Below, piece after piece: positions 5,138 through 41,464 of a DNA stretch of 47,841 nucleotides. Where the stretch lies: assembly GCA_024653775.1 (NCBI GenBank), contig JANLHZ010000301.1, positions 1 to 47,841 of the forward strand. Reading direction: 5' to 3'. The stretch is from Planctomycetota bacterium (GTDB taxonomy: Bacteria > Planctomycetota > UBA8742 > JACQVU01 > JANLHZ01). Under the pieces are notes generated by a model, which was not told the origin of the DNA, did no database searches, and saw nothing but the letters and a program-made list of their open reading frames with translations. Each line of letters starts with the position of its first letter. The stretch's first letter is position 1. The position numbers were made by a program, and so were the translations under genes.

Positions 5138-5319
5138 AGGAGTCTGAAACTAATAAGTGATACATCTCGCATCTCATCTTCACGCCATCTTCGCTTCGCA
5201 CTCAGTCGCCAAATCCTCGACGGAACTATTGCTACGACTCCGGTTTGGCTTCCTCGTGCAAAACGAATCTGACGCAAATCTGAGCGCGATTTTGTACAAC
5301 TTATTAGTTTCAGACTCCT
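5138..5319. repeat. 182-bp element with 21-bp perfect terminal inverted repeats
   Basis: AGGAGTCTGAAACTAATAAG plus T (5138-5158) is repeated as an exact reverse complement at 5299-5319, enclosing about 140 bp without an ORF. It has the size and architecture of a non-autonomous (MITE-like) element. A target-site duplication is not evident. A further hairpin (TTATCAT/ATGATAA, 5118-5138) abuts its left end. It ends 43 bp before the alpha-2-macroglobulin start, so it may carry or disrupt that promoter. Confidence 0.65.
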
Positions 5320-13095: not shown

Positions 13096-13175
13096 AAGCC
13101 CGCTAACTCGCACAATATTTTGTTGCGCGCGGGATTTTATTGCGCGCGGACGAGATTCGCTGTTTTCATGAAGCC

Positions 13176-13234
13176 ATGAGCGATACTATCGTCTACACGC
13201 ACTCGGAGAAGATAAAGGAAAAGCTCGCGCGCCT
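13176..13234 (+). pseudogene. uvrC: Duplicated 5' end of uvrC (truncated copy)
   Basis: These 59 bp, starting at ATG 13176, are identical to the first 59 bp of uvrC (14146-14204) except one base (C at 13202, T at 14172). Similarity extends weakly upstream (10 of 15 bases, 13161-13175). After 13234 the copy runs into foreign sequence and would stop after about 38 codons. It is probably the original uvrC start, cut off by the insertion of the two genes that follow. Confidence 0.85.
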
Positions 13235-13236
13235 CC

Positions 13237-13653
13237 TCAGGAATCATCTTCAGAACTCAGGCCTGTTTCCGGCGAGATTTCCCCAATGCTTGTTGGAGTA
13301 ACGACAACGATTGTTTGCTTGGGCTTGCCTTTGATTTTAAGGATGAGTTTCTTGAGTTCGCCGCGTGTTCGGTACCAAGCGATCCCAAAAATTACGGCGA
13401 ATGATAGTCCGACACATCCCAGCAAATAGTTTAGGAATAAAGCTAAAGTCCACCTGAAGTCTGTCGTGGAGGTGCTGCTGATTGCGTTTATCAAAGTGGG
13501 CACACCAACGCCGAAAGACGTAATACAGACATCCTTCCACAGATTAGCTCCAGCATTCTCAATTTGATTCAATTCATCTTCCGAGGCCGCAAAATCAATG
13601 CGATCTGGATCGTAGTGAATATACTGTTTCGCTGAATTTGTTGAGATTTCCAC
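13237..13653 (-). CDS. Two-TM small membrane protein of the inserted gene pair
   Basis: A 138-residue protein with no recognised family. The N-terminal 40 residues are polar with a predicted helix (EDELNQIENAG) and are followed by two hydrophobic segments (about 41-59 and 68-93), a basic stretch (TRGELKKLILKIKGKPK) and an acidic C-terminal tail. It starts at GTG, 6 nt after the stop of the zinc-ribbon gene, so translation is probably coupled. Its stop codon lies exactly at the left edge of the inserted segment. Codon use is AT-rich compared with neighbours, which suggests transfer. Small two-TM proteins of this general plan are common in accessory DNA. No function is proposed beyond membrane location. 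Confidence 0.75.
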   Translation of the reverse strand: MEISTNSAKQYIHYDPDRIDFAASEDELNQIENAGANLWKDVCITSFGVGVPTLINAISSTSTTDFRWTLALFLNYLLGCVGLSFAVIFGIAWYRTRGELKKLILKIKGKPKQTIVVVTPTSIGEISPETGLSSEDDS

Positions 13654-13659
13654 GCTGCG

Positions 13660-13914
13660 TCAGTCAACCGAATCCGATTCAATAGTGCCGACCGAAAAAA
13701 GGCGGATGTTACCACAATTGTTGCACACCATGGCAAAACAACGTGCTTGTCCAATTGTCGCCCGAATGAAGGCATCGCTATTAGTTACATTTAGCGATAC
13801 TTCCTGGTCAAAAACCGCCCAGTTGTTTTTGCCACAACATTCACACTTGAAGTTTACATTCCTCTTCGCGAGAGTTTCGAGAAGTTGATCTCTCTTGCTT
13901 TTTGTTGTAGGCAC
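13660..13914 (-). CDS. Small zinc-ribbon protein of the inserted gene pair
   Basis: An 84-residue soluble protein. Two CxxC knuckles (Cys24/Cys27 in CECCGKNNW and Cys64/Cys67 in CNNCGNIRLFS) form a treble-clef or zinc-ribbon-like metal site around a short beta-rich middle. The N-terminus is a basic helix (TTKSKRDQLLETLAKR). The GTG start is supported by a strong GGAGG 5 nt upstream. It is first in a two-gene operon with the two-TM protein, and the pair makes up nearly all the coding capacity of the segment inserted between the two uvrC 5' copies. A pairing of a small zinc ribbon with a small membrane protein suggests a compact accessory module. The function is unknown. Confidence 0.8.
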   Translation of the reverse strand: MPTTKSKRDQLLETLAKRNVNFKCECCGKNNWAVFDQEVSLNVTNSDAFIRATIGQARCFAMVCNNCGNIRLFSVGTIESDSVD

Positions 13915-14145
13915 TTTACCTCCGAGGTTTACGAACGAGATTTGACTGAATCTCTTCTCCGCTAATTTCTATCGCTATCTTCCAAAGTATAGCTTAGAAC
14001 ATAAGAAGTGCAAAGAAAACTTCGATGCTGTCGTGGCGAAGGTATTGCCTGTCATTTCTTTTCGCATATCGAAATAGCGCTCCAAAGTTCAGAGCGGCGG
14101 AATATTACATTGTACGTCGCCATCCGATTCTGCTCTCATAAAAAA
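13915..14145. other. Right part of the inserted segment, new uvrC upstream region
   Basis: AT-rich and without a credible gene. It separates the divergent zinc-ribbon gene from the functional uvrC start and must supply the present uvrC promoter, since the original upstream region is now about 970 bp away. I looked for integron attC-type core sites and terminal inverted repeats and found none. Confidence 0.5.
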
Positions 14146-16041
14146 ATGAGCGATACTATCGTCTACACGCATTCGGAGAAGATAAAGGAAAAGCTCGCGC
14201 GCCTTCCGAAGGAACCCGGCGTGTACCTCCTCAAGGACGGCAAGGGAGACACTATCTACGTCGGGAAGGCGACTTCGCTCGCAAGCCGCGTCCGGCAATA
14301 CTTCGTCGGCTTCAGCGATTCGAGGCCTAGCATACCGTACCTGCGCGCGCAGACGGAAGATATTGACTGGATCGTCACGAAAAACGAGTTCGACGCGCTG
14401 ATCCTCGAAAATAACCTCATAAAGAAGGAAAAGCCGAAGTACAACGTTCGCCTGCGCGACGACAAGACCTACATTTCGCTGAAGCTCACCGTGAACCACC
14501 CGTTCCCGCGAATCCACGAGGAACGCGACTACAAACCCGACGGCTCGATGTACTTCGGGCCGTACTCGTCCGCGACCGCGCTTCGCGATACGCTCCGCAC
14601 CATCGGCGGGATTTTCAAACTGCGCCGGTGCAGCGACCACGAGCTGGAAACGACCGAGAAGCCTTGCCTTTACTACCACATAGGCGCTTGCAGCGCGCCC
14701 TGCGTCGGCTACGTCGATCAGGCGGAGTACGCGCGGCAAGTCGATTCCGTGGTGCTGTTCCTGCAGGGGAAGGACAAGAAGCTCGTCGACGATCTGAAGG
14801 CGCGGATGCGCGAAGCCGCGAGGAACCTGCGCTTCGAGGAGGCGAGCAGGTATCGCGATCAGATCACCGCGGTGGAGCGCACCGTCAGCGAGCAGAAAGT
14901 CGTCGCGCGGAAATACGTCGATTTCGACGCGGTCGGCTTCTTCCGGCTGTCGGACGTGACAGAGTTCAGCATCATCAGCGTGCGCAAGGGAGTTCTCGCG
15001 GGCGCCTTCGACTTCACCATCCAGAACCCGCTGTCGGAGGAGGACGTCGCGAGCCAGTTCATCCAGCAGTATTACGAGCGCGGCGCGTACGTCCCTCCTG
15101 AGATCGTCGTGCCGTGGGAGCTCGAAGATAAAAGCATCATCGAGACGTGGCTGATGCAGCGCAGGAAAGCGCAGCTTACGAGCGGGCAGAAACGGCTCAA
15201 GGTCGCGCTCGTCGTCCCCACCCGGGGCGAGCGCAAGAAGATGCTCGAACTCGCCTTCGAGAACGCGAAGGAAAGCCTTAGAAAGAAGAACGACAGGAAG
15301 CTCCAGAACGAAAAACTGCTCGAGAGTCTACGCAGCGCGCTATACCTGTCTGCGCTTCCGGAGCGGATCGAATGCTTCGACATTTCGCATTTCCAGGGTA
15401 GCGCGACTGTCGGAAGTATGGTCGTATTCGAAGGCGCGCAGCCCGCGAAGAAGGAATACCGGATGTACTCTATCAAAAGCCACGACACGAACGACGACTT
15501 CGCGAGCATGGAGGAAGTGCTAACGCGCAGGCTCGAGCGCGGCATCCGCGAGGAAAACCTCCCCGACCTCATAATCATCGACGGCGGCAAAGGCCAGCTC
15601 TCGCGGGTGCAGAGCGTTTTCGAACGCCTCGGCGTACAGGCGTACAAGGACGTGGGACTCATCAGCCTCGCAAAAAGCCGTCTGCGGACGAAGAAGGGCG
15701 TGTCGCTTCGCACCGACGAGCGCGTCTATAAACCGGATCGCGCCTTGCCGATTGTCCTCGGTCAGAGCAGCGCGGAACTGCTGCTTATCGCGCGCATCCG
15801 CGACGAGGCGCACCGATTCGCGATCACGTATCACAGAAAGAAGCGCAAGAACATCGTCTTCGAAACCGGCCTCGAAGGCATCCCCGGCCTCGGCGAGAAA
15901 CGAAGAAAGGTCCTGCTCGACAAATACGCTACGCTCGACAAAATCAAGGCGCTTTCTCTCGGTGAACTCGAATCCATAGACGGCATCCCGAAGACCCTCG
16001 CGAAGACGATTTTCGAGCACCTGCGCAGTGATGCCGATTAG
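14146..16041 (+). CDS. uvrC: Excinuclease ABC subunit C
   Basis: UvrC makes both incisions around bulky DNA lesions in nucleotide excision repair with UvrA/UvrB. The 631-residue protein is full length. It has the N-terminal GIY-YIG nuclease (GVYLLKD at 25-31, IYVGKA at 37-42), the UvrB-interacting UVR motif (about residues 205-235, NLRFEEASRYRDQI), the RNase-H-like second nuclease (ERIECFDISHFQG, DLIIIDGGKGQL) and a C-terminal tandem helix-hairpin-helix (GIPGLGEKRRKVL...SIDGIPKTLAKTI). ATG 14146 is chosen because it begins the duplicated 59-bp segment and matches the family N-terminus. It lacks a Shine-Dalgarno sequence, as does the upstream copy. An in-frame extension to 14008 is inside the inserted DNA and is not expected to be translated. 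Confidence 0.96.
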   Translation: MSDTIVYTHSEKIKEKLARLPKEPGVYLLKDGKGDTIYVGKATSLASRVRQYFVGFSDSRPSIPYLRAQTEDIDWIVTKNEFDALILENNLIKKEKPKYNVRLRDDKTYISLKLTVNHPFPRIHEERDYKPDGSMYFGPYSSATALRDTLRTIGGIFKLRRCSDHELETTEKPCLYYHIGACSAPCVGYVDQAEYARQVDSVVLFLQGKDKKLVDDLKARMREAARNLRFEEASRYRDQITAVERTVSEQKVVARKYVDFDAVGFFRLSDVTEFSIISVRKGVLAGAFDFTIQNPLSEEDVASQFIQQYYERGAYVPPEIVVPWELEDKSIIETWLMQRRKAQLTSGQKRLKVALVVPTRGERKKMLELAFENAKESLRKKNDRKLQNEKLLESLRSALYLSALPERIECFDISHFQGSATVGSMVVFEGAQPAKKEYRMYSIKSHDTNDDFASMEEVLTRRLERGIREENLPDLIIIDGGKGQLSRVQSVFERLGVQAYKDVGLISLAKSRLRTKKGVSLRTDERVYKPDRALPIVLGQSSAELLLIARIRDEAHRFAITYHRKKRKNIVFETGLEGIPGLGEKRRKVLLDKYATLDKIKALSLGELESIDGIPKTLAKTIFEHLRSDAD

Positions 16042-16115
16042 CCGCGTAGCGGCGGGATGTTTGTAGCTTCGACGCGAACTCCGCGTGAGCCGCGTAGCGG
16101 CGGGATGTTTGTAGC
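16041..16115 (-). repeat. Two REP-like units, downstream side of the transposase
   Basis: A 27-bp sequence (GCCGCGTAGCGGCGGGATGT then TTGTAGC) occurs twice, at 16041-16067 and 16089-16115, with a 48-bp period. Each contains a GCCGC-GTA-GCGGC hairpin. The intervening CTTCGACGCGAACTCCGCG links to the copies at 4795 and 16652. The first unit begins in the last base of the uvrC stop codon. Confidence 0.75.
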
Positions 16116-16123
16116 AGGAACAG

Positions 16124-16585
16124 CTATTCAAAAAACTCGAACAAATATTCTCTGTTAAACTCAACTCCGAATTTTTCAAGCATCTCGAGATACTCTTCTT
16201 TGAATGTCTTTTTTCGATGATGTTCTTCCTGGTTGAGCACATATTTCGACACGTTATCTATATGGCTGCGAGAATAAGAAAATGCGCCGTACCCGGATTG
16301 CCACGAGAACTTGCCGTAGAACCATCTTTTTTCGTTTATGAATCTGGATGTATTCGCTTTTACATCTCGAACGAGGTCCGAAATCGATTGCGCCGGGTTA
16401 AGACCAACGAATAAATACATGTGGTCGGTGGCGCATCCGACCGCGAGCATTTTGTGATCGTGGTTTTGGACGATGCCTGTGATGAACTTTTGAATCTCTT
16501 CGTGGTTTGTTTTTTGAAGAAGATGCTGACGTTCCGCGACTGCGAAGACGATGTGAATGTATAGCTGGGTGTATGTGTTCGCCAT
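16124..16585 (-). CDS. IS200/IS605-type single-domain transposase, RAYT-like
   Basis: A 153-residue Y1-type HUH transposase that would act on single-stranded DNA. The fold signature is clear: TQLYIHIVFAVAER strand at the start, DHMYLFVGLNP at 54-64, and NVSKYVLNQEEHH containing the likely catalytic Tyr115. The usual H-x-H metal motif is H55-M-Y57 here, so the second His is replaced by Tyr and activity may be lost. ATG 16585 gives the normal family length, although the frame is open to 16609. It is flanked on both sides by REP-like hairpin repeats in opposite orientation, the arrangement seen for REP-associated transposases, and no tnpB is present. Confidence 0.9.
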   Translation of the reverse strand: MANTYTQLYIHIVFAVAERQHLLQKTNHEEIQKFITGIVQNHDHKMLAVGCATDHMYLFVGLNPAQSISDLVRDVKANTSRFINEKRWFYGKFSWQSGYGAFSYSRSHIDNVSKYVLNQEEHHRKKTFKEEYLEMLEKFGVEFNREYLFEFFE

Positions 16586-16651
16586 GGCTTGAAACATAGG
16601 AAAAAACATACCGCCCCGATGTGGTTTGTGTGGAGGATTTATTTTGTTTTT

Positions 16652-16693
16652 CTACAAACATATCACCCCTCCGGGGTTCCTGCGGAGTTCGCG
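16652..16693 (+). repeat. REP-like unit, upstream side of the transposase
   Basis: CTACAAACAT, then a CCCC-TCC-GGGG hairpin, then TGCGGAGTTCGCG. This is the same architecture as the units at 16041-16115 read on the other strand (CTACAAACAT, CCGC-hairpin, CGCGGAGTTCGCG). The sequence of the hairpin differs but pairing is kept. Orientation is opposite to the downstream units, so the transposase sits between inverted REP-like copies. Confidence 0.65.
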
Positions 16694-22118: not shown

Positions 22119-22637
22119 AATTTCTCAAAAATTCTCGGAGTCCCGCGGAACCTTGATGATCTGGTAATACGCGGTAATTTTAAATCATTCAACGAATATG
22201 TCGCGTGGATTGTTTCAGATCTAAAGATTTTCCGTGTTGGTTAGGTAATTCACGTATTCTGCCATCCCCGCAGGATCAGTTCGCCATCTTGAATTTAATT
22301 CCTTTGCGCCTTCGCACCTTTGCATCTTTGCGCGAAATATTTTTCGAAACCGGAGATTATGGGATCGTTTCGCGCAAAGACGCCAAGGTACGAAGGCGCA
22401 AAGGAATTAAATTCAAGATGGCAAACTGATCCTGCGGAGATGGCAGAATACGTGAATTACCGAACCAACAACATTATAGCTAAAAAACCGGAGGATGTTG
22501 CGTCCTTTAGTTTTCGGAGTGTCGTTTAACGCTGACGAAGAGGATGAATTAAAAGAAACACTTGTCTGCGCGAGGGCATCGCGGATAATGTTTGGTGCTT
22601 GTAAAAGACGTCCATTCCTGCCGGAATTTCCAGATAG
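22119..22637. other. Divergent region before bamA holding a large inverted repeat
   Basis: No gene is seen in these 519 bp between divergent envelope genes. The centre is filled by the 236-bp inverted-repeat element at 22235-22470. The remaining 167 bp before bamA have no clear sigma70 promoter that I could place. Confidence 0.6.
22235..22470. repeat. 236-bp inverted repeat with 103-bp arms
   Basis: The left arm 22235-22337 and right arm 22368-22470 are the same length and match as reverse complements at 97 of 103 positions, with a 30-bp spacer. The arms include CTTTGCGCC/TTTGCGCGAAA words. It would form a very long hairpin in single-stranded DNA or RNA. It resembles a MITE or a head-to-head duplication of a dispersed repeat. 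No ORF is inside it. Confidence 0.9.
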
Positions 22638-40738: not shown

Positions 40739-41335
40739 ATGCGGGAGAAAACGAAAAAGCGAAACTGGGGGCCGTTCGTATTAGCGTCGATACTGTGCGC
40801 GATACTTTGGATCGCTACCGTCTGGACGCGCTCGTATCTTAAGATCGAAGCGGAGCATGGATCGTATGATTCCGTCTCCTGCCATCTCGAATTCGTCGCA
40901 TCGGTCGACCTTCTCGAAAGGCACTCTGAAGACGAATTCGGCAGACACTTTCTTGACGCGAGCATCGGTCCCGCGCACCCGGAACTGTACGAAGCGACGC
41001 AGACCGTGGATAACACGGATTTCGTGTACGAGGGTAGAAAACTGATAGAGACTACGTGCAGGTTCGAAAACGTCAACCCGCACAGAGCAGATAGAAACGC
41101 ATACTTCGATTCGAATCCGTATTACACGTGGGGAGGAAGAGAGTATTTGAGAGTAAGGGCGAATTACGACGAAACGACGATAAACCTCTACATTCCGAAG
41201 TCCGCGTTCGCCTACGACGAAAGCTCGCGGGAGCTAACCTTCCACGGAACCCTCGAACTTCGCGACGGCGCAAAACCGCGGTGGCTCAACATCAACGGAG
41301 AGGAAATCGAGATCGTGACGAACGAGGGAGAATAG
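40739..41335 (+). CDS. Single-pass membrane protein of unknown function
   Basis: A 198-residue protein with a basic N-terminus (MREKTKKRNW), one TM helix (GPFVLASILCAILWIATVW) and a ~170-residue extracytoplasmic domain rich in beta-type residues (VNTDFVYEGRK-like strands, YYTWGGREYLRVRANY). It was not recognised. The ATG lies 3 nt after the stop of the helical-repeat protein, so the two are translationally linked. The last base of its stop codon is the first base of the 40-bp tandem repeat. Confidence 0.7.
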   Translation: MREKTKKRNWGPFVLASILCAILWIATVWTRSYLKIEAEHGSYDSVSCHLEFVASVDLLERHSEDEFGRHFLDASIGPAHPELYEATQTVDNTDFVYEGRKLIETTCRFENVNPHRADRNAYFDSNPYYTWGGREYLRVRANYDETTINLYIPKSAFAYDESSRELTFHGTLELRDGAKPRWLNINGEEIEIVTNEGE

Positions 41336-41464
41336 AGATTTCAGCCACGCGCCCGATAGGGCGTCAAGGTTATCGAGATTTCAGCCACGCGCCCGATAGG
41401 GCGCCAAGGTTATCGAGATTTCAGCCACGCGCCCGATAGGGCGTCAAGGTTATCGAGATTTCAG
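41335..41464. repeat. 40-bp tandem repeat, 3.25 copies
   Basis: Units at 41335-41374, 41375-41414 and 41415-41454 are identical except one C/T change in the second, followed by the first 10 bp of a fourth. Each contains a small CGCCC-GATA-GGGCG hairpin. There are no spacers and no cas genes, so this is a minisatellite or REP-type array rather than CRISPR. Confidence 0.92.

Follow-up and report, generated by a model that had tools for sequence, protein, structure and literature searches.

A zinc-ribbon gene cassette at uvrC lies between two copies of the uvrC start, a scar with siblings at unrelated genes of the same Planctomycetota genome

A cassette carrying a pair of accessory genes sits at the start of uvrC in a Planctomycetota genome, between two copies of the uvrC 5' end. 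This arrangement is that of 'insertion with long target duplication', which is known for R-M genes, with an unclassified gene pair as the cargo here. We suggest that the 'target duplication' is most plausibly a donor gene end imported together with its cargo, and not a duplication by a staggered cut. The donor uvrC end and the cassette probably entered by one-sided homologous recombination, which would need no element-borne recombinase. The locus lies in the window, the whole 47,841-nt stretch of contig JANLHZ010000301.1 that was analysed, and comprises the following features.

13097..13175, plus strand: presumed native uvrC leader, left of truncated copy A; its last 22 nt weakly resemble the leader of copy B
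13176..13234, plus strand: truncated copy A of the uvrC 5' end, ATG to +59; the frame continues into the insert and then meets a stop
13235..14145, no strand: inserted cassette between the uvrC copies, 911 bp, G+C 0.44
13237..13653, minus strand: gene for a 138-aa small membrane protein; no Pfam or PADLOC match, NCBIfam only far below cut-off
13660..13914, minus strand: first gene of the pair, for an 84-aa zinc-ribbon protein (CxxC ... CxxC); no Pfam, NCBIfam or PADLOC family above cut-off
13915..14145, no strand: 231-bp spacer from the pair to uvrC; fold unremarkable (z -1.3), no Rfam family
14130..14145, plus strand: leader of copy B, presumed donor-derived; 10/16 match to the leader of copy A
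14146..14204, plus strand: copy B of the uvrC 5' end, with which the intact gene begins
14146..16041, plus strand: intact uvrC with GIY-YIG, UVR, UvrC RNase H and HHH domains

As the preliminary description had it, the initial 59 bp of uvrC are present twice, at 13176-13234 and at 14146-14204, with one mismatch (58/59 identical). A direct-repeat search paired 13160-13234 with 14130-14204 (75 nt, 91% identity), and gapped alignment of the copies reaches about 85-91 columns with degenerate edges. Similarity of the flanks beyond the uvrC repeat is weak (shuffle p 0.024 on the left, 0.066 on the right). BLAST aligns the copies over 85 columns at 88% with an E-value of 3e-23, which excludes a repeat arising by chance. 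The mismatch is a C/T difference at offset 26 from the ATG and leaves His9 unchanged; a single synonymous difference (p 0.22) is too little to discriminate between the readings. Perfect identity extends over 32 nt at most, making a short-k assembly bubble unlikely.

The account of the roughly 910 bp between the repeats as an antisense gene pair plus spacer was also accurate. The two genes are the only credible ones in the cassette, both antisense to uvrC, and G+C across the full window is 0.56, above that of the cassette. The cassette was described as ending exactly at the stop codon of the membrane-protein gene; a gap of 2 nt separates this stop and the truncated uvrC copy. The name 'two-TM' given to this gene fits most relatives, which score two TM segments by hydropathy, but the 138-aa protein here has one clear segment. 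Elsewhere, the zinc-ribbon/two-TM pair is found on tiny mobilizable plasmids. The reported local lack of a recombinase and terminal inverted repeats held under inspection of genes and repeats. Neither of the two cassette genes qualifies as a recombinase, the repeat search returned no inverted repeat joining both cassette ends, and no attC-like imperfect palindrome, as in integron cassettes, was visible in repeats, fold or Rfam. Rfam matches across the full window numbered zero, and the insert showed neither a transposase gene nor a short target-site duplication. Comparison of the zinc ribbon with plasmids, phages and viral contigs gave no useful result, nor did a scan of phages with a second zinc ribbon.

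Scars of the same kind recur in this genome. A survey of 77 stretches (1,116,060 bp; 1.12 Mb, 21% of the genome) yielded 15 filtered direct-repeat matches. In nine of these a duplicated gene end brackets a cassette, and the other six fall inside repetitive ORFs; after the filter, events were called by eye. The nine events of this genome and one in a relative (L133) make ten in all. The scars lie at unrelated genes, at 5' as well as 3' ends, and their repeats measure 53-284 bp. Among the cassettes are Type II R-M systems (L126 and L206), BrnT with a BrnA-like partner (L076) and HEC-02A/B (L207). None of the ten inserts showed a recombinase gene. As judged by eye, the outer repeat border is no more than 4 nt away from a start or stop codon in 7/10 events. 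L076 and L126 resemble repeated events at one gene. The BrnT family match at L076 starts inside the cassette, the contig of L126 is without an intact copy, and L113 crosses a gene-gene boundary.

Other repeats were not accepted as events. The upstream repeat of L077 occurs in 12 places and the L141 repeat in three; L084, L079, L080, L081 and L105 hold dispersed or palindromic repeats. Repeats at L094, L204, L208 and L210 lie within repetitive ORFs, those at L120 are near-tandem between small ORFs, and L093, L099, L125 and L215 contain long paralogous stretches (~72-76%). In control genomes, a short match linked two different coding regions (L152) and a repeat lay within one ORF (L163).

Across 12 coding segments of the ten events, 74 synonymous and 32 non-synonymous codon differences separate the copies, against 27.4 synonymous differences (sd 4.5) expected under decay. 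Codon position 3 takes 85/126 changes. These counts omit the end of the L211 repeat past a 1-nt indel and the non-coding part of L076; at L083, the copies show no synonymous and two non-synonymous differences. In aggregate, the copies appear to behave as diverged alleles and not as a fresh duplication.

The one event with close relatives is L133 in the relative G017, where the creatininase 5' end is duplicated and mrr lies between the copies. All five congeners of this genome have an empty site without mrr (5/5). The sister genome G008 is colinear with L133 from 1.5 kb upstream into the gene (86.8%). Over nt 1-60, G008 sides with the truncated copy at 14/16 differing sites; of the 11 such sites in nt 61-230, G008 shares 7 with the intact copy and 2 with the truncated one. 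The switch in polarity (Fisher p 0.002) gives the repeat a hybrid structure with a crossover point. By this comparison, the truncated copy is native and the start of the intact copy foreign, and the scar is a recombination hybrid that points to DNA of another lineage and not to an enzyme of a mobile element. Part of the truncated copy looks decayed, with changes at residues conserved in 5/5 congeners, so that linear and circular versions of the mechanism are inseparable here.

The preliminary description allowed that all relatives might share the uvrC arrangement and suggested looking for the pair beside other duplicated gene starts. The pair is present at 0/29 uvrC loci examined in relatives, all of them distant (39 genomes matched, own included). 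Other loci with the pair were compared. L034, a second diverged copy of the pair in this genome, is flanked by argC and an enoyl-CoA hydratase gene; no gene start is duplicated there, and the copy adjoins a MITE-like element of 137 bp whose inverted ends are 23 bp long. Around L066, the repeats are all of a low-complexity palindromic kind. L061 and L064 carry gene-end fragments that we take to be urocanase-like; they were left uncounted, L064 being arranged differently in the comparison with G017.

We suggest the following route to the uvrC scar. The accessory pair of zinc ribbon and small membrane protein would arrive adjoining a donor copy of the uvrC 5' end, and a homologous crossover within uvrC would link donor and recipient. 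At its opposite end, the donor DNA would be joined non-homologously to the resident uvrC at +59. The product would consist, in order, of the native leader, the cut-off native uvrC start, the cassette, and an intact uvrC with donor leader and start. The source might be a linear fragment with one homologous end, amounting to homology-facilitated illegitimate recombination, or a circle with the cassette and a truncated gene end, integrated by a single crossover. Because the uvrC copies differ once and close relatives are lacking, the mechanism at uvrC is proposed by analogy, and the event would have arisen like its siblings. We infer uptake by transformation; the genome encodes ComEC and two DprA-family genes. 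Several points weigh against this route. At four of five stop-facing junctions, the truncated copy is no more than 7 nt away from the last stop codon of the cassette, which is tighter than a random join predicts. The L083 counts and the decayed look of part of the truncated L133 copy also count against it, and a site-specific crossover would leave a hybrid too.

Foreign DNA at the uvrC start bringing a replacement start is supported, as previously described. The accompanying reading as element-type integration is supported in part, given the foreign insert and its new start; the same scar also occurs at unrelated genes, in inserts without a visible recombinase gene, and at L133 it is a recombination hybrid. 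In the form of a recombinase-less site-specific (CIME-like) element, the 59-bp repeat would represent attL/attR and an integrase would act in trans from elsewhere in the genome. Such an element would supply a replacement gene start, and hybrid copies would be expected. The suggested search for trans-acting integrases yielded four tyrosine-recombinase and two resolvase-type matches in the genome; the inserts showed no recombinase gene (0/10). About ten target sites with such variable repeats would require many specificities, and a 1,045-bp query covering the cassette neighbourhood matches a single place in the genome, with no second use of the candidate att sequence. We regard a CIME-like element as unlikely.

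A true target-site duplication, with a staggered break of ~60-90 nt filled in around the insert and subsequent drift of the cut-off copy, is what 'long target duplication' means literally, and the uvrC copies are indeed nearly identical. Such fill-in seems highly improbable against differences that are mostly synonymous over ten events, borders at start or stop codons in most of them, and a genome in which Ku was not found; it is contradicted at L133, where the start of the intact copy is foreign. An assembly or scaffolding artefact in a mixed population, with one strain ending within uvrC and a second starting with the cassette, finds some support in a genome split over 331 contigs. A bad two-strain join would give synonymous divergence, with one border at a gene end and the other arbitrary. 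The short exact identity of the uvrC copies speaks against this, and several other events are 85-88% identical, probably too diverged for cross-mapping of reads. No cassette gene is visibly cut at a junction in the nine events tabulated, and L133 sits on a 2.45-Mb contig, its genome being assembled into about six. An artefact is quite improbable.

The term long target duplication has left open by what route accessory modules that lack a transposase or integrase become established at core genes. Scars like that at uvrC can be scored in single genomes (gene-end repeat, synonymous divergence) and among congeners (polarity, crossover point), which makes one-sided recombination testable across genomes. 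The scar at uvrC also draws attention to the zinc-ribbon/two-TM pair as a candidate defence or addiction module, and we infer a selfish or defence-type role for it. More tentatively, long target duplications in general might be donor gene ends, and small modules (R-M, toxin-antitoxin, HEC-02, the zinc-ribbon/two-TM pair) could use this route to spread along core-gene ends, perhaps aided by a process that trims the cassettes flush to the last stop.

SXT-type ICEs replace the start of prfC on integration at its 5' end. The uvrC insertion resembles SXT-type ICEs and CIMEs in its position at a gene start and its replacement start, but has no integrase, no conjugation genes and, with its siblings, many different target genes. 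Insertion with long target duplication (Nobusato et al. 2000, Furuta et al. 2010, as cited in PMC3874152, PMC3031569, PMC1643837 and PMC4978471) shares, as outlined in these citing articles, accessory genes, a long and variable direct repeat of resident sequence (order of 100 bp), the lack of transposase and terminal inverted repeats, and R-M genes, which are among this genome's cargo. In contrast, the uvrC cargo is not R-M, the zinc-ribbon/TM pair having no PADLOC match, whereas the siblings L126 and L206 carry R-M systems and L133 carries mrr. The copies here also appear to be diverged alleles, with repeat borders mostly at gene ends.

Homology-facilitated illegitimate recombination and single-crossover duplication (PMC3240628, PMC2884548) pair one homologous with one non-homologous side, as proposed here, and in E. 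coli experiments produced partial gene duplication beside the insert. In PMC3240628, 56/60 Lac- clones carried a partial lacZ duplication, attributed to a single crossover and spanning 109-950 bp in 14 sequenced clones; the same anatomy as the uvrC scar was thereby made in the laboratory. Those were transformation and conjugation experiments, whereas our reading derives from genome anatomy in a lineage known from contigs only. The effector-immunity arrays of the Vibrio cholerae T6SS (PMC5361080) accrete modules at one locus, which is explained by homology at one end and illegitimate joining at the other, much as L076 and L126 show apparent repeated events at one gene. The arrays keep old immunity genes, whereas the scars described here keep truncated resident gene ends.

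The preliminary description holds: uvrC begins with 59 bp that are present twice, at 13176-13234 and 14146-14204, and the two copies differ by a single mismatch. This mismatch is synonymous. Also confirmed were the two antisense genes and the spacer between the copies; this DNA measures 911 bp at 44% G+C. The gene for the membrane protein stops 2 nt short of the truncated copy. With gaps allowed, the repeat covers about 85-91 alignment columns; its edges are degenerate on either side and have weak support (p 0.024 and 0.066).

Components of the 911-bp insert in the window
Zinc-ribbon protein, 84 aa, antisense to uvrC
Small membrane protein, 138 aa, antisense to uvrC
Spacer, 231 bp

The fold check found no notable fold in the spacer, and Rfam gave zero matches across the whole window. 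An IS200-like (Y1) transposase gene lies 3' of uvrC; a duplicated 28-bp repeat and a 42-bp inverted repeat (79%) flank this gene (16040-16115 and 16124-16693). The window also holds a palindrome-like inverted repeat of ~240 nt, self-complementary at 85% (22235-22470), and a 40-nt unit present three times head-to-tail (41332-41464).

The same scar recurs in the source genome. The sample comprised 77 stretches including the window (1,116,060 of 5,417,346 bases), and repeats were retained if at least 40 nt aligned at 80% identity or more, at least 150 bp apart, in at most three places of the sample and with no inverted self-match. Fifteen matches passed. Nine are gene-end duplications around other genes, and six are internal to long, repetitive ORFs: L094 and L204 have one each, L208 and L210 have two.

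Gene-end duplications in the sampled stretches (duplicated end; enclosed genes)
Window: uvrC 5' end; zinc-ribbon/membrane protein pair
L076: xerC-like 5' end; BrnT and BrnA-like
L083: TGT-domain gene 5' end; subtilase and 221-aa protein, antisense like the window cassette
L113: end of a 323-aa gene plus start of the following gene
L124: carboxylase 3' end; ParA-like and 238-aa protein
L126: 3' end of a gene without assigned identity; Vsr, Type II REase, C5 methylase
L206: alaS 3' end; control protein, Type II REase, methylase
L207: glgC 3' end; HEC-02A and HEC-02B
L211: minus-strand gene 3' end; endonuclease/phosphatase-like and 172-aa protein

For the window, L076, L083, L113, L124 and L126, G+C ranges from 0.42 to 0.53 in the insert and from 0.51 to 0.57 over the stretch as a whole; the inserts of L206, L207 and L211 have 0.47-0.48. 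In L076 (2594-4641), two different BrnT/BrnA-like pairs stand in tandem 5' of the xerC-like gene with a cut-off xerC start between them, giving the appearance of one event following another at a single gene. Other repeats were also seen in the sample. Self-complementary elements (67-68%) of equal 182-nt span (window 5138-5319, L080 6265-6446, L089 1228-1409) may belong to a single dispersed family of palindromes in this genome. A DUF262-like gene (PADLOC HEC-05 match) and a sucD-like gene in L077 (5574-8091) share a similar 105-bp upstream stretch, present at further places of the sample.

Removing the window and five stretches picked for the second pair or recombinase matches leaves seven events in 1,004,635 bp. 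The same procedure was applied to 60 stretches (1.2 Mb) from five relatives (G017 and G042, 400 kb each; G009, 180 kb; G006, 120 kb; G043, 100 kb). Four matches passed and one is an event, the creatininase locus L133 of G017. The others are a short match linking two different coding regions (L152), a repeat confined to one ORF (L163) and a repeat present in three places (L141). Gene-end duplications seem enriched in the source genome, with 7 of 8 events there (p 0.026, G043 left out), in a small sample.

The outer border of the repeat, judged by eye, lies within 4 nt of the target gene's start or stop codon in 7 of the 10 events (window, L083, L133, L124, L126, L207 and L211) and ~20 nt off in L206, and the repeat extends into the neighbouring gene in L076 and L113. 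The inner border has no fixed position. In nine events (L113 left out) no cassette gene shows a visible cut where it meets the truncated copy; in L076 the BrnT frame continues into the fragment, and the BrnT family match starts inside the cassette. Stop codons facing the truncated copy lie at distances of 2, 0, -2, 7 and 53 nt. In L124, L207, L211 and the window (13237), the final stop codon of the cassette either overlaps the truncated gene end or is at most 7 nt away from it.

The creatininase locus provides a natural experiment. Here, a cut-off 5' end of creatininase, 229 bp long, precedes mrr, and the intact gene follows it. All five congeners searched carry creatininase without adjoining mrr, and the congener G008 is colinear on both sides, at 86.8% over the 1.5 kb to the left of the cut-off copy and at 91.4% over the 1.4 kb to the right of the gene. 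This establishes that the insertion is real and that the left flank, including the cut-off copy, is the resident locus. At the 16 sites that differ in nt 1-60, G008 has the base of the cut-off copy 14 times and that of the intact copy twice; at the 11 in nt 61-230, it sides with the intact copy 7 times and with the cut-off copy twice (Fisher p 0.002). The intact gene therefore begins with foreign sequence, and the switch falls in the stretch from about nt 55 to 88, in which both copies are identical. Fill-in duplication as the origin of the repeat cannot produce a foreign start followed by a switch. Some later changes in the cut-off copy affect residues conserved in all five congeners and look like decay, which fits a linear donor; the donor may instead have been circular.

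Across twelve coding segments of the ten events, copies differ at 74 synonymous and 32 non-synonymous codons, against 27.4 (sd 4.5) synonymous expected under free drift of one copy, and codon position 3 holds 85 of 126 changes. The excess persists after removing L124, L076 or L133. No internal stop codons were seen in the compared segments, and the truncated copy of L211 has one 1-nt indel. L083 shows the opposite trend (0 synonymous, 2 non-synonymous), L206 (6:5) and L207 (2:2) are near even, and the window adds a single difference. Most of the divergence thus arose in separate lineages in which each copy was still a functional gene.

For uvrC itself, the protein scan of genome contigs recovered distant relatives only. 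A match was found in 39 of 60 genomes, and was absent at E 1e-60 from the nearest genome compared, which belongs to another family of the same order. The pair and the window's neighbouring genes were absent from all 29 other uvrC loci excised and searched, all from distant relatives.

The pair, in which a zinc ribbon carrying two CxxC-type motifs adjoins a small membrane protein, represents a scattered family whose genes overlap or abut in most loci. Of 392 genomes searched in the phylum, 21 matched a three-sequence profile (E 0.001), many with a zinc ribbon that lacks a visible partner. The source genome has a second, diverged pair, adjoined by a 137-bp MITE-like element with 23-bp inverted ends (L034, 814-950; similar sequence in L079, by eye). 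Pairs formed by relatives of the second zinc ribbon are carried by a 2.7-kb mobilizable plasmid found in E. coli and Salmonella (15 matching records, with the annotation read for one region), and a more distant pair by a 4.6-kb Klebsiella plasmid. The plasmid pairs in L195 and L196 are annotated as hypothetical proteins. Neither window protein scored above cut-off in Pfam, NCBIfam or PADLOC. Among the 10 cassettes, 5 are recognisable as R-M, Mrr, BrnT or HEC-02 modules; on this basis it is a reasonable guess that the pair is a candidate defence or addiction module.

The source genome encodes ComEC and two DprA-family proteins and gave no match for Ku. This makes transformation a possible route of uptake, and classical end joining a less plausible process. 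In conjugation experiments, partial lacZ duplications were described in 56 of 60 Lac- clones (109-950 bp in 14 sequenced) and attributed to a single crossover with a molecule missing part of the homology (PMC3240628); as described there, their anatomy equals that of the gene-end duplications here. Passages on other loci invoke one-end homology with illegitimate joining (PMC5361080, PMC2884548), and one on Arabidopsis a circle-and-crossover model for flanking repeats (PMC2869330). In a limited literature search, none of nineteen papers using the phrase 'long target duplication' also used 'homology-facilitated', though others may. 'Insertion with long target duplication' is reported for R-M genes in Helicobacter (PMC3031569, PMC1643837, PMC3874152, PMC4978471, PMC3154945), and the creatininase comparison offers a mechanism for it. 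As far as those accounts describe it, the anatomy of the window is the same and thus already known from R-M genes, whereas its cargo is an uncharacterised pair.
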